Positions 4,073-8,586 of a stretch of 32,300 bases of DNA are shown in pieces. Within the stretch, counting starts at the first letter, position 1. Every line of letters begins with the position of its first letter. The notes under the pieces are model-generated. The model was given only the letters and a program-made list of their open reading frames with translations. It was not told the origin of the DNA and did no database searches. Source of the DNA: a virus; IMG/VR virus record IMGVR_UViG_3300026136_000012, positions 1 to 32,300 of that record; one strand, given 5' to 3'. A program made the position numbers and the translations under genes.

Positions 4073-4300
4073 ATGGAACAATCTGATTCAATTTATATAC
4101 ACGAAACAACAAATCTTCATTGTTCTGATGGTGAATTATATATTCAGTATGGTAGTATAGAAGAACCAAAACAAGTTGTTTTTAATGTTGAAAATCTTTA
4201 CAAAGATTTGGCTTTTATTGTAAACCAAGTGGTTAAAGAGAACAACAAAATGCAGAAAATGCATTTGGATTCACTAAAAGAAGAATTAAAAGAATTATGA
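4073..4300 (+). CDS. Unknown acidic protein
   Basis: This 75-residue protein has a beta-like N-terminal half (IYIHETTNLHCSDGELYIQ) and a helical C-terminal tail ending LKEELKEL. I recognise no domain. Its stop overlaps the exonuclease start (ATGA at 4297-4300), so it is coupled to that gene. Confidence 0.6.
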   Translation: MEQSDSIYIHETTNLHCSDGELYIQYGSIEEPKQVVFNVENLYKDLAFIVNQVVKENNKMQKMHLDSLKEELKEL

Positions 4301-5010
4301 TTTTACTAGTTGATGCAGATAGTTTAATATTTGCTAGTAATTACAGGAAAAGGGAACAACCTGATGATGATCCATATTACAGTACACTAGCTGAATGTAT
4401 GGATAAATTTGATGAACAGTTTATGCGTATTGTAAATGATTTAGAAGAACAGTACACCATAGACAAAGTAATTACATTTAATGGTAGTAAAGGTAATTTT
4501 AGAAAGTATGTTTCTAAAAACTATAAATTAAATAGGAAAAATATAAAATTACCCCCATTCCTAGATGAAATGCATAGCTATGTTAAAAAAGCATATAATT
4601 CTGTATATGGTTATGGGGTTGAAACTGATGATATGGTAGCTAGATATTGGACTACATTAACTGAAGATTTAGGAAGGAATGAAGTAATGATTGTTTCTAT
4701 TGATAAGGACTACAAACAATTTCCTGCATTAATATACAATTACCATCACAAGCATAGAATTGTGTATGACATAACAAAACAAGAAGCATTGTTCAATTTT
4801 TATTCACAAATGATTGAAGGTGATCAAGCAGATAATGTAAACTTTTTTAAAGGTAAAGGAAGGGCATTTGCAAAAAAATACTATGCAGAATGTGAAACAG
4901 AATACCAATATAGAAAAAAATTATTCTTATTATTTAAAGAAAAATATAAATCAAAAGCTAGGGAAAAATATATTGAATGTTATTCACAGCTTAAATTAAG
5001 AACAAACTAA
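4297..5010 (+). CDS. 5'-3' exonuclease (FEN/T4 RNase H-like)
   Basis: This 237-residue protein has the ordered acidic motifs of the FEN/5'-nuclease family: LLVDADSLIF with D6, VETDDMVARY with E109, D111 and D112, SIDKDYKQFP with D136 and D138, and IEGDQADNV with D176 and D179. A GKGRA element (186-190) follows, where the helix-3-turn-helix lies. These residues bind two metals that cleave 5' ends, flaps or RNA primers. In the phage it would remove primers and resect ends for ERF-mediated recombination. Length is typical of phage forms without an attached polymerase. Confidence 0.85.
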   Translation: MILLVDADSLIFASNYRKREQPDDDPYYSTLAECMDKFDEQFMRIVNDLEEQYTIDKVITFNGSKGNFRKYVSKNYKLNRKNIKLPPFLDEMHSYVKKAYNSVYGYGVETDDMVARYWTTLTEDLGRNEVMIVSIDKDYKQFPALIYNYHHKHRIVYDITKQEALFNFYSQMIEGDQADNVNFFKGKGRAFAKKYYAECETEYQYRKKLFLLFKEKYKSKAREKYIECYSQLKLRTN

Positions 5011-5501
5011 TGAATTTAACACCTACAGAAATAGCTGATAAAATAAAAGAAATATCAGGAATTGATCTATTTAAGAACACAAGAAAAAAAGAATATATAG
5101 AACTTAGATCATTACTAAATCATTTACTTAGAAACAAGTTAAATATGCGATGGGCATATATAGCACAGTTTTTTATTGATAATGGTAAAACATATGATCA
5201 TTCACTAGCAATTCATTCTTGTAATACATATAAACAATTAGCAAAGCATAATCCAAAGCTAAAGGAAATTGAAGATATGTTTACATTTAAATCTAATCTA
5301 ACATATGATCAGATAGATAAATGTTACTACTTAGAAAATAAGATTAAAAATCTTAATAATAAAATATCAAAATTAAAAGGTGAATTAGATAGTCCTGCAT
5401 ATAACTTATTAAAAGATGTTGATGATGAAGATGTTCCTGAACTAGAAGAAAGGCTAGGAATGTGGAAAAAATCTTTAGAATGGAAAAAAAAACTTAATTA
5501 A
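5010..5501 (+). CDS. DnaA C-terminal-domain-like DNA-binding protein
   Basis: This 163-residue protein contains ELRSLLNHLLRNKLNMRWAY (31-50), then IAQFFIDNGKTYDHSLAIHS (51-70). This reproduces the helix-turn-helix and signature of bacterial DnaA domain IV (LR..., IG..FG.RDHSTVLHA). The AAA+ ATPase domain of DnaA is absent. The C-terminal part (about 100-160) is coiled-coil-like and acidic. It could mark the phage origin or bind DnaA boxes of the host. The stop-start overlap with the exonuclease (TAATG) links it to replication genes. The fold call is good; the role is inferred. Confidence 0.65.
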   Translation: MNLTPTEIADKIKEISGIDLFKNTRKKEYIELRSLLNHLLRNKLNMRWAYIAQFFIDNGKTYDHSLAIHSCNTYKQLAKHNPKLKEIEDMFTFKSNLTYDQIDKCYYLENKIKNLNNKISKLKGELDSPAYNLLKDVDDEDVPELEERLGMWKKSLEWKKKLN

Positions 5502-5515: not shown

Positions 5516-6247
5516 ATGATACAAAAGGTTGATATTAGTAAGGTTATTCCTAATCCTGATAATCCTAGATTTATAAAGGACTATAAATTTAAGAAACTTG
5601 TGAAATCTGTAAGAAGATTCCCACAAATGTTAAAACTTAGACCTATTGTAGTAAATAAAGAATGGGTTGTTCTTGGTGGTAATATGAGATTAAAAGCCTG
5701 TATTGATGCAGGACTAAAACAAGTTTGGATATTACAAGCAGATGAATTAACAGAAGATCAGGAAAAAGAATTTGTAATAAAAGATAATGTTGGTTTTGGT
5801 GAATGGGATTGGGATGTGCTTGGTAATGATTGGGAACAACAAGAACTAGAAGATTGGGGTTTAGATGGTTTCCCATTTGAAAAAGAAGCTGAAGAAGAAG
5901 AAAAATACACAAGAAAAATTGAAGCACCCACATACAAGCCAAACAATAAAAAACCAAAAATAAAAGATTTGTATGATGATTCTAAATATCAGGAACTAAT
6001 AAACAACATTAATAAATCTAATATATCAGAAGAAGAAAAAAAGCTACTTATTACTACAGCACAAAGGCATATTGTTTTTGATTATAGTAAGATTGCAGAT
6101 TACTATGCACATTCAGATAAAGATGTTCAATTACTAATGGAAGAATCTGCACTTGTTATTATTGATTTTAATAAAGCAATTGAAAATGGATATGTAAAAC
6201 TAACTAATGAAATAGCTGATTCATTTACAAAAAATGGAATATTATGA
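5516..6247 (+). CDS. ParB/Srx-fold protein with acidic C-terminal extension
   Basis: The N-terminal 90 residues form a ParB-like nuclease/CTPase-fold domain: ISKVIPNPDNPR (7-18), RPIVVNKEWVVLGGNMRLKA (42-61) with the GGNxR motif, and the KDNVGFGEWDWDVLGNDW segment (89-106) usual in phage ParB proteins linked to DNA methylases. Here no methylase is fused. Instead residues 120-243 are a charged linker plus an unrecognised helical domain (TAQRHIVFDYSKIADYYAHS). It overlaps the glycosyltransferase gene by 4 bases. ParB-like domains occur in phage DNA base-modification islands, which is the leading guess. Confidence 0.75.
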   Translation: MIQKVDISKVIPNPDNPRFIKDYKFKKLVKSVRRFPQMLKLRPIVVNKEWVVLGGNMRLKACIDAGLKQVWILQADELTEDQEKEFVIKDNVGFGEWDWDVLGNDWEQQELEDWGLDGFPFEKEAEEEEKYTRKIEAPTYKPNNKKPKIKDLYDDSKYQELINNINKSNISEEEKKLLITTAQRHIVFDYSKIADYYAHSDKDVQLLMEESALVIIDFNKAIENGYVKLTNEIADSFTKNGIL

Positions 6248-7092
6248 ATGATGATTTTGCTGTATTTATATTAACCTATGGTAGACCTGATAATGTTAAG
6301 ACATATAAAACATTAGATAGGTTTGGGTATACAGGTAAAATTTATTTAATATGTTCAACTGATGATAAAAAACTAAATCAATATAAAACCAAATACAAAG
6401 ATCAAGTAATAACATTTAATAAGGATGATATAGAATTTGATACTGCTGATAATTTCAATGATAAAAGGGTTGTTGTCTATGCTAGAAATGCCTGTTTTAA
6501 AATAGCTGAAGATTTAGGTATAACATATTTTTTACAAATGGATGATGATTATACAGATTTCAGTTATAGGTTTGATGATAAATTATCATATCATAAAGGC
6601 AGGGGATATATTAATAAAGTAGATGATATATTTAAATCATTATTAAAATTCTATAAATCTATTCCTGCTAAAAGCATTGCATTATCACAAAATGGGGATT
6701 GGATAGGTGGTGATCAAAGTGGATGGGCAAAAAAATTAAGTTTAAAAAGAAAGTGTATGAATAGCTTTTTCTGTAGCACAAAAAGACCTTTTAAATTTTT
6801 AGGCACAATTAATGAAGATGTTACTACATATACAAGGCTAGGCAGTATTGGTGATTTATTTTTTACAGTTCCAAATGTATCATTAAAGCAAACAGATACA
6901 CAATCTAATAATGGTGGTTTAACAGATTTTTATTTAGATGAAGGTACATACATTAAATCATTCTATAGTGTTTTGTTTAGTCCATCATCAGTAATTGTAT
7001 CTGTTCTAAATACTGAAAATGCTAGACTACATCACAGGGTATCTTGGAATAATACAATCCCAAAAATATTAAATGAACAATATAAAAAATGA
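6244..7092 (+). CDS. GT-A-fold glycosyltransferase, possible DNA-modifying type
   Basis: This 282-residue protein starts with FAVFILTYGRPDNVKTYKTL (5-24), the usual nucleotide-sugar strand of GT-A enzymes. It has FLQMDDDYTDF (96-106) with a DDD metal/sugar-nucleotide motif and INEDVTTYTRLG (about 198-209), resembling the catalytic ED motif. The pattern recalls the TET/JBP-associated glycosyltransferases described computationally in phages, but I cannot confirm membership. No TET/JBP hydroxylase is visible in this window. Coupling to the ParB-like gene and placement before terminase suggest action on DNA before packaging; a glycan on a virion protein is the alternative. Confidence 0.65.
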   Translation: MNDDFAVFILTYGRPDNVKTYKTLDRFGYTGKIYLICSTDDKKLNQYKTKYKDQVITFNKDDIEFDTADNFNDKRVVVYARNACFKIAEDLGITYFLQMDDDYTDFSYRFDDKLSYHKGRGYINKVDDIFKSLLKFYKSIPAKSIALSQNGDWIGGDQSGWAKKLSLKRKCMNSFFCSTKRPFKFLGTINEDVTTYTRLGSIGDLFFTVPNVSLKQTDTQSNNGGLTDFYLDEGTYIKSFYSVLFSPSSVIVSVLNTENARLHHRVSWNNTIPKILNEQYKK

Positions 7093-7448
7093 ACAAAAGT
7101 AGACATATAAAAAAGGAATCACTATTGAAGGCTTTAGAAAAAAGTTTAGGAATAGTTACAGTTGCCTGTAAAAATGCAGATATACCTAGAAGCACATATT
7201 ACAAGTGGATCAATGAAGATGCAGAATTTGCTGCTGCAGTTAGAGATATTGAAAATGTTGCATTGGATTATGCTGAATCTAAACTGCATAAACAGATAGG
7301 TGATAATTCTACAGCAGCTACAATCTTCTATTTAAAGACCAAAGGTAAAAAAAGGGGATATGTTGAAAGGCAGGAAATCACAGGTGCAGATGGTATACCA
7401 ACAAATTTTCAAATAGAAATCATTGACAAAACCCAAGATACAAACTAA
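7089..7448 (+). CDS. terS: Terminase small subunit
   Basis: This 119-residue protein has an N-terminal helix-turn-helix (GIVTVACKNADIPRSTYYKW, 21-40, then INEDAEFAAAV). It continues with the oligomerisation helices and AATIFYLKTKGKKRGYVER (about 76-94), all typical of small terminases of Bacillus phBC6A51-like and flavobacterial phages. It binds the packaging site and stimulates the large subunit. The start overlaps the glycosyltransferase stop by 4 bases, and the large terminase begins 26 bases before its end. Confidence 0.85.
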   Translation: MNKSRHIKKESLLKALEKSLGIVTVACKNADIPRSTYYKWINEDAEFAAAVRDIENVALDYAESKLHKQIGDNSTAATIFYLKTKGKKRGYVERQEITGADGIPTNFQIEIIDKTQDTN

Positions 7449-8586
7449 CATTGTTTACAAGCATTTAGTAAACAACAACAAAAAGATTCTAGTAGAACAG
7501 GGTGGAACTAGATCAGGAAAAACCTATAATATCATATTATGGATTATATTTCATTATTGTGCTAATAACAATGATAAAGTAATAACAATCTGCAGAAAGT
7601 CATTCCCTAGTTTAAGGGCAACAGTTCTAAGGGATTTCATTGACATCTTAAAAACCTATAATATATATAGGGAAATGTATCATAATAAATCCAATTCAGA
7701 ATACAATCTTTTTGGTAATCTAGTTGAATTTATTTCATTAGATCAACCACAAAAAATAAGAGGTAGAAAAAGGGACTTACTATTTATTAACGAAGCCAAT
7801 GAATTATACTTTGAAGATTGGCAGCAATTGATATTTAGAACAATGGATAAAATAGTAATTGATTTTAATCCTTCTGATGAATACCATTGGTTGTATGATA
7901 AAGTCATTACAAGGGATGATTGCAACTTTTACAAAACTACATATCTAGATAACCCTTTTTTAGAACAAAGCCTAATTGATGAAATAGAAAGGCTAAAATA
8001 TACTGATGAACAATATTGGCAAATCTATGGATTAGGTGAAAGGTCTGCAAGTAGAAGCACCATATTTAAATATGAAGAAGTAAATATAATACCTGAAGAT
8101 GCAGAACTAATATCCTATGGTATGGACTTTGGATATTCCAATGATCCAACAACCTTAGTTTCTGTTTACACTAAAGGCATCAACCTATATATAAAAGAAC
8201 ATCTGTACAGAACCCAAATGACTACAAAGGACATTCATACCTTTTTAAAAAATGAACAGCTTAGGAATAAACCTATATATGCCGATTCTGCTGAACCAAG
8301 ATTAATACAAGAACTTAGGACAATGGGACATAATATATTCCCAAGTATTAAAGGCAGGGATTCAGTAAATGCAGGAATTGATTTATTAAAAAGATACAAG
8401 ATTCATATACTAGCAGATTCTAATAATGCTATACAAGAATTTAGAAACTACAAATGGAAGGAAGATAAATCAGGTAGGCTAATTAATACACCTGAAGATA
8501 AACATAACCACATTATTGATCCCTGCAGATACTGCACTTATTCAATCCTGAGTAGACCAAATTTTGGTAAATATCACATTTATTAA
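7423..8586 (+). CDS. terL: Terminase large subunit
   Basis: This 387-residue PBSX/Terminase_3-type motor has Walker A GGTRSGKT (27-34), Walker B LLFINEA (119-125), coupling motif DFNPS (147-151), and nuclease aspartates in YGMDFGYSND (D235), YADSAEP (D288) and HIIDPCRY (D366). It cuts concatemers and pumps DNA into proheads through the portal. No ATG lies near the 5' end, so I use TTG at 7423, inside the small subunit gene. An internal ATT or ATA start closer to 7446 cannot be excluded. Confidence 0.93.
   Translation: MTKPKIQTNIVYKHLVNNNKKILVEQGGTRSGKTYNIILWIIFHYCANNNDKVITICRKSFPSLRATVLRDFIDILKTYNIYREMYHNKSNSEYNLFGNLVEFISLDQPQKIRGRKRDLLFINEANELYFEDWQQLIFRTMDKIVIDFNPSDEYHWLYDKVITRDDCNFYKTTYLDNPFLEQSLIDEIERLKYTDEQYWQIYGLGERSASRSTIFKYEEVNIIPEDAELISYGMDFGYSNDPTTLVSVYTKGINLYIKEHLYRTQMTTKDIHTFLKNEQLRNKPIYADSAEPRLIQELRTMGHNIFPSIKGRDSVNAGIDLLKRYKIHILADSNNAIQEFRNYKWKEDKSGRLINTPEDKHNHIIDPCRYCTYSILSRPNFGKYHIY

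Follow-up and report, generated by a model that had tools for sequence, protein, structure and literature searches.

The viral DNA analysed here (the window, an entire viral record of 32.3 kb) contains two overlapping genes, encoding a protein with a ParB-like N-terminal domain and a glycosyltransferase of the TAGT family. We find that the conserved unit is the C-terminal domain (CTD) of the first protein with the TAGT, not the ParB-like domain with the TAGT. The CTD is the obligate partner, and the ParB-like domain is optional and replaceable. The pair is probably a two-component glycosyltransferase tethered to DNA. The TAGT, with its GT-A fold, would be the catalytic subunit, and the CTD would act as its dedicated adaptor or subunit. 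The section ahead of the CTD would be a swappable DNA tether, a ParB-like domain in this phage and a short beta-clamp-binding peptide elsewhere, and with either tether the enzyme would be held on viral DNA, close to where replication or packaging takes place. The sugar would most likely be added to DNA, as a shield against nucleases.

Two overlapping genes ahead of the terminase

The original prediction placed a gene pair with a four-base overlap between replication genes and the terminase, and this arrangement is correct. The key features are summarized in Table 1. The two genes share an ATGA, and the TAGT gene overlaps that of the terminase small subunit by four bases as well. Upstream are ORFs for a 5'-3' exonuclease (4297-5010, PF02739 E = 5e-11) and a DnaA-C-like protein (5010-5501, score under the Pfam cut-off). 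A Pfam scan of 38 other ORFs of the window yielded families with head, tail, recombination or packaging functions; none resembled a base hydroxylase, a hydroxymethylase or a DNA methylase. The pair is also present in phages that infect Escherichia, Salmonella, Lactobacillus, Haloarcula and Porphyromonas, and given this recurrence it is not a chance juxtaposition. It lies upstream of the terminase in Rac-like E. coli phages, Lactobacillus phages jlb1 and c5 and Porphyromonas phage005a. Archaeal HHTV-2 has it as well, and in the circular record of Nocardia phage NTR1 it comes at the beginning, directly ahead of TerL. Hosts of the module range from haloarchaea to many bacterial phyla.

Table 1. 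Features of the gene pair and its surroundings in the window
Feature	Position	Strand	Basis
Protein with ParB-like domain and putative TAGT-adaptor C-terminal domain, 243 aa	5516..6247	+	PHROG 620 E = 1.2e-32
ParB-like N-terminal domain, residues 2-120	5519..5875	+	PHROG and ParB profile matches
GGNMR, ParB Box II (P motif)-like, Arg58	5675..5689	+	read from sequence
KDNVGFGEWDWD segment common to phage ParB-methylases, residues 89-100	5780..5815	+	sequence; phrog_498 alignment 2-126
CTD, residues 131-243, conserved helical putative adaptor domain accompanying TAGT	5906..6244	+	homologue linkage; no PDB fold match
ATGA overlap of the two genes, 4 bases	6244..6247	+	read in sequence
TAGT-family GT-A glycosyltransferase, 282 aa	6244..7092	+	PF20691 E = 3.5e-35; predicted fold
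DDD, residues 100-102, DXD-type metal/nucleotide-sugar motif	6541..6549	+	homologue alignment
NED, residues 190-192, candidate catalytic region	6811..6819	+	homologue alignment
Terminase small subunit (context)	7089..7448	+	phrog_309 E = 5.5e-8; 4-base overlap with TAGT gene
Terminase large subunit (TerL, context)	7423..8586	+	Terminase_3 E = 3.7e-24

The first protein matches the PHROG 620 'ParB-like' profile, and its residues 2-126 match the ParB portion of the ParB-methyltransferases found in phages (phrog_498, E = 1.8e-23). The Pfam ParB_N match is below the cut-off (E = 1.4e-4, 22.3 bits vs 26.3). The G[HN]xR sequence of Box II, GGNMR in the window, is kept in 149 of 164 ParB-fused homologues. 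According to PMC12704722, the Box II arginine is required for NTP binding in ParB folds, and ParB with CTP forms a DNA clamp; the domain in the window may similarly bind CTP. The protein does not have the makeup of a canonical ParABS component, given that it has no helix-turn-helix match and that no ParA family was found among the window ORFs. Nor is it a ParB-fused DNA methyltransferase, as Pfam and PHROG show no methylase domain in its C-terminus, and it lacks a beta-clamp-binding motif resembling QL(S/D)LF. For residues 131-243 no Pfam family gives a confident match. The earlier description of a ParB domain, a KDNVGFGEWDWD segment and a C-terminus outside known families is therefore accurate.

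The second protein is a TAGT by profile (PF20691, 122.3 bits vs a cut-off of 27.5, residues 5-224), and matches PHROG 842 with E = 1.6e-69. D101, D102 and D192 are invariant among 83 homologues, and N190 is present in at least 90% of them. An AlphaFold model (pLDDT 91) has the GT-A fold, with matches to GT-A structures in the PDB at E-values down to 1.8e-5. The assignment as a glycosyltransferase resembling those associated with TET/JBP, made from the DDD and NEDV motifs, thus stands. Profile searches and structure prediction had been put forward as its check; they agree on the TAGT family and the GT-A fold, and many of the PDB structures with a matching fold are transferases that act on proteins or glycans. 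In public records homologous TAGTs are called 'beta-glucosyl-HMC-alpha-glucosyltransferase' or 'GREB1-related', names that imply an hmC pathway or a role with proteins, neither of which is evident.

Linkage of the CTD to the TAGT and exchange of its N-termini

Vibrio T4-like phages have, ahead of the TAGT, a 139-aa protein corresponding to the C-terminal domain only, with ~50% identity to that of the window. Viral contigs and genomes were therefore searched with the CTD alone. A TAGT lies no more than 1.2 kb downstream in 274 of 279 unique CTD ORFs found with CTD-only queries, where the best 80 homologues were taken per query so that the counts are no unbiased census. Three of the other five are cut at a contig end; in L088 the TAGT is 2.4 kb downstream, and in L253 it is just upstream. 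In the reverse search with TAGT queries, the CTD was missing only where the contig started at the TAGT. T6 and Vibrio 1.124.O, whose TAGTs belong to other branches, have no CTD anywhere in the genome. It is because the linkage holds in both searches, and the CTD is absent from these two phages, that we regard the CTD and not the ParB-like domain as obligate. Some loci have unusual arrangements. In L088 (2646-6388) genes of sugar-donor type, CofD-like/HAD and MobA-like nucleotidyltransferase, lie between CTD and TAGT; L084 (6194-9291) has one CTD with three TAGT-like ORFs around it, and L069 (6658-9168) has two complete CTD and TAGT pairs in tandem.

Most records label the first protein a 'ParB partition protein', which would fit a regulator or partition protein with the TAGT as an unrelated neighbour. 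We consider this very unlikely, since the window has no match to a ParA family, the CTD still accompanies the TAGT when ParB is absent, and the CTD is missing from TAGT phages without the module.

The CTD probably serves as an adaptor by which the TAGT is held on DNA, in a putative physical complex of the two. The conserved peptide YTxKIxxPxYEP at its N-terminal end is predicted to be flexible, and is likely to be the docking element.

Two enzymatic identities for the CTD were considered and rejected. As a known enzyme, it has no sequence relative in the PDB at a meaningful E-value and no PDB fold match with E < 1; its only fold matches with E < 0.001 are two uncharacterised viral models. As for a metal-dependent hydroxylase, the Porphyromonas homologue has other residues in place of the conserved H55 and H69, and the c5 homologue in place of H69, so that a shared metal site is unlikely.

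Among 326 CTD ORFs, 164 (about half) have a long ParB-like N-terminus and 143 have only a short one. A ParB profile, itself built from a subset of the long N-termini, matches all 164 of them. The short N-termini typically start MKQINLF, MKQFNMF, MKQYDLF or MQQDLF. The canonical bacterial beta-sliding-clamp-binding pentapeptide of QxNLF type, Q-x-[DNSTEAKG]-[LM]-F, is present in 77 of 131 unique short N-termini. Among background ORFs of the same contigs this strict pattern is found at 6 of 3440 N-termini; it is found in about 1 of 131 shuffled short N-termini and in none of 161 ParB-fused proteins. The corresponding Fisher p-values are ~1e-114 against the background and ~1e-35 against the ParB-fused proteins, although these overstate independence because the pattern was defined after the first examples had been seen and the sequences are related. 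Within the motif Q and F are invariant and the fourth position is L or M, while the flanks vary. QL(S/D)LF is the consensus of bacterial beta-clamp binders (PMC9690074), and the short N-termini would be expected to bind the clamp.

The strict motif is missing from 54 of the 131. Many of these belong to phages with a PolA and a sliding clamp of their own encoded next to the module, where adaptor and PolA frequently start alike (MDLFDMDI and MDLFTIPG, MSLIEV and MPLISI), a likeness of modest significance (permutation p = 0.012). The PolA ORF of the L257 phage begins MPQIDLFGDIV, a canonical clamp-binding peptide akin to those of the adaptors.

The tethers have been swapped repeatedly along the TAGT tree. 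The presence or absence of ParB requires 20 changes, at least 10 of which supported branches make unavoidable; the label for the clamp motif requires 12, of which 8 are forced. The genomic setting differs with the tether. At loci with 3 kb of room, TerL lies within ~6 kb of 79/92 ParB-type modules vs 15/56 without ParB (p = 5e-13), while a phage sliding-clamp gene is nearby in 19/56 ParB-less and 0/92 ParB-type modules, often with an adjoining PolA gene. The ParB-less forms are thus often beside replication genes, and the ParB forms beside the terminase. ParB-fused DNA methylases also lie upstream of the terminase in the two phages examined (Javan174 and vB_Gva_AB1), with a SAM synthetase adjoining one of them.

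Around 30 of 188 loci have a nearby gene for UDP-galactopyranose mutase, a cytidylyltransferase-like protein or a radical SAM protein, often overlapping the TAGT. The window has none of these beside the module, and its enzyme would use a host nucleotide sugar. A gene fusing histidine-phosphatase and cytidylyltransferase is found between CTD and TAGT in L042 (2942-3895), L021, L049, L053, L067 and others, and in L025 the ParB-CTD ORF itself has both domains fused to it. In L259 (7219-8316), L360, L389, L321 and L325 the UDP-galactopyranose mutase gene overlaps the end of the TAGT by a few bases, which suggests a galactofuranose donor. Eight loci in all have a radical SAM gene near the TAGT, including L402 (10014-10973), L399, L411, L414 and L392.

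The acceptor of the sugar

The nature of the tethers, the gene neighbours and the TAGT family suggest DNA as the probable acceptor. Description of the two genes as a DNA-modification pair gains indirect support from the similar placement of ParB-methylases upstream of the terminase, the clamp motif and the replication genes, but needs amendment in that the obligate partner of the glycosyltransferase is the CTD and not ParB. Phage DNA glycosylation is not known to take place without a hydroxylated base. The original prediction saw no base hydroxylase in the window, in agreement with our Pfam scan, and proposed that one might lie elsewhere in the genome. For the known families this is disfavoured, as searches of four complete relatives (c5, jlb1, HHTV-2 and NTR1) and of 23 other viral records, which may be fragments, found none.

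The families Tet_JBP, DNA_methylase, 2OG-FeII_Oxy_3 and alpha-GT gave no match in the tested module-bearing records. Tet_JBP was absent from 30 related records and from the window scan, although that search is weak alone as no control genome matched. Thymidylat_synt, for which T6 was the positive control, was found in one Vibrio T4-like phage among the 30 records and was absent from the window scan. PF00303 and PF11440 both match in T6; among module records PF00303 matches only in the Vibrio T4-like phage and PF11440 in none. The proposed search for a TET/JBP or hydroxymethylase gene thus drew a blank in the window record, and in the relatives gave only this one Thymidylat_synt match. No Pfam match to the T-even hmC glucosylation system (dCMP hydroxymethylase with alpha- and beta-GT) was found in the window. 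No acceptor-forming enzyme is among the 25 of 34 families listed for 41 proteins of c5, and within 6 kb of 188 loci no gene for such an enzyme recurs as a third member. We found no report in the open literature on the restriction sensitivity of c5 or HHTV-2 DNA.

Conventional glycosylation of hmC or hmU, with a base hydroxylase coming from an undetected phage gene or from the host, is the way in which the T6 TAGT works, and every genome retains ORFs without an assigned function. Yet the five families searched have no match outside the T4-like phage, and the c5 scan, the 188 loci and the wide span of hosts, which takes in haloarchaea and many phyla of bacteria, all weigh against this route, which we judge improbable. 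The remaining choices are that the acceptor comes from an enzyme not yet recognised or from the module itself, that an atom of a canonical base is used, or that the target is a protein. The boldest form of DNA glycosylation would have the clamp- or ParB-tethered TAGT act directly on a canonical unhydroxylated base, for example at an exocyclic amine. The two-protein module alone would then hypermodify DNA, with the sugar set by the optional donor genes (UDP-galactopyranose mutase, cytidylyltransferase). We offer this tentatively, as a possibility that is less likely than not.

Alternatively the TAGT might transfer sugar to a replisome, terminase or capsid protein, or to the adaptor itself, with the tether only positioning it nearby. 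This would accord with the lack of a base hydroxylase in the records searched, and with closest PDB folds that include SunS, GalNAc-T2, COLGALT1 and glycogenin. Relatives of the GT-A/TAGT type are able to modify proteins, the E. coli homologue is named 'GREB1-related' in RefSeq, and the invariant CTD tyrosines Y1 and Y10 could be acceptors. But two unrelated DNA-directed tethers in two genomic settings fit DNA better than one common protein, and the characterised phage TAGT, that of T6, acts on DNA. We therefore think a protein target rather unlikely, and favour DNA.

Relationship to known systems

The component families are already known, and earlier comparative work on TET-associated operons reportedly exists. 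In a search mostly of the open literature, the available sections of PMC12704722, PMC13216743 and PMC12783734 make no mention of the CTD-TAGT unit or of the exchange between ParB and clamp tethers. In PMC13216743, a TAGT-type enzyme accompanied by neither T-even glycosyltransferase, and of unexplained function, is given for 288 of 753 phage genomes. One large TAGT group, including the module of E. coli prophages, is now tied to a single adaptor and two alternative DNA tethers, and the role of solitary TAGTs becomes testable in E. coli. The occurrence of phage ParB domains with DNA-modifying enzymes might be explained if they are tethers interchangeable with binding to the replication clamp. 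New DNA sugars are possible, from furanose or cytidylyl-activated donors.

The TAGT of T6 (beta-glucosyl-HMC-alpha-glucosyltransferase) belongs to the same PF20691 family as that of the window, although it scores only 37 bits against the profile compared with 122. This comparison is by Pfam scores, since aligning the TAGT profile to the lone T6 sequence with hhalign yielded no usable result. The T6 gene adjoins a thymidylate-synthase-family gene, which we take to be the dCMP hydroxymethylase, in a genome without the CTD, whereas the window phage has no such partner. Like the window TAGT, the T6 enzyme has a GT-A fold in an AlphaFold3 model, and the alpha-glucosyltransferase of T4 binds the gp45 sliding clamp (both from PMC13216743). 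The T4 enzyme and the module would both couple a phage glycosyltransferase to the sliding clamp. However, the T4 protein has a GT-B fold and is of another family, contacts the clamp without a separate adaptor, and needs hmC.

The ParB-fused DNA methyltransferases (phrog_498) share with the module a related ParB-like N-terminus and a position upstream of the terminase, and the SAM synthetase beside one of them parallels the donor genes near the module. They differ in that the methylase is fused to ParB, where the module has the CTD and a separate TAGT. In the carboxymethylcytosine modules a ParB-domain protein is encoded near the phage DNA-modifying enzyme CmoX, which uses Cx-SAM; the accessible description mentions neither TAGT nor CTD (PMC12783734). 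Lastly, ynaK of the E. coli Rac prophage is the ParB half of the module. In K-12 (ynaK/ydaY, L426:3001-3604) only the first ~250 bp of this half is left, followed by ydaY, and the CTD and TAGT have been lost. At least 80% of the ParB-CTD-TAGT DNA is present in 885 of 5426 complete E. coli genomes (~16%).
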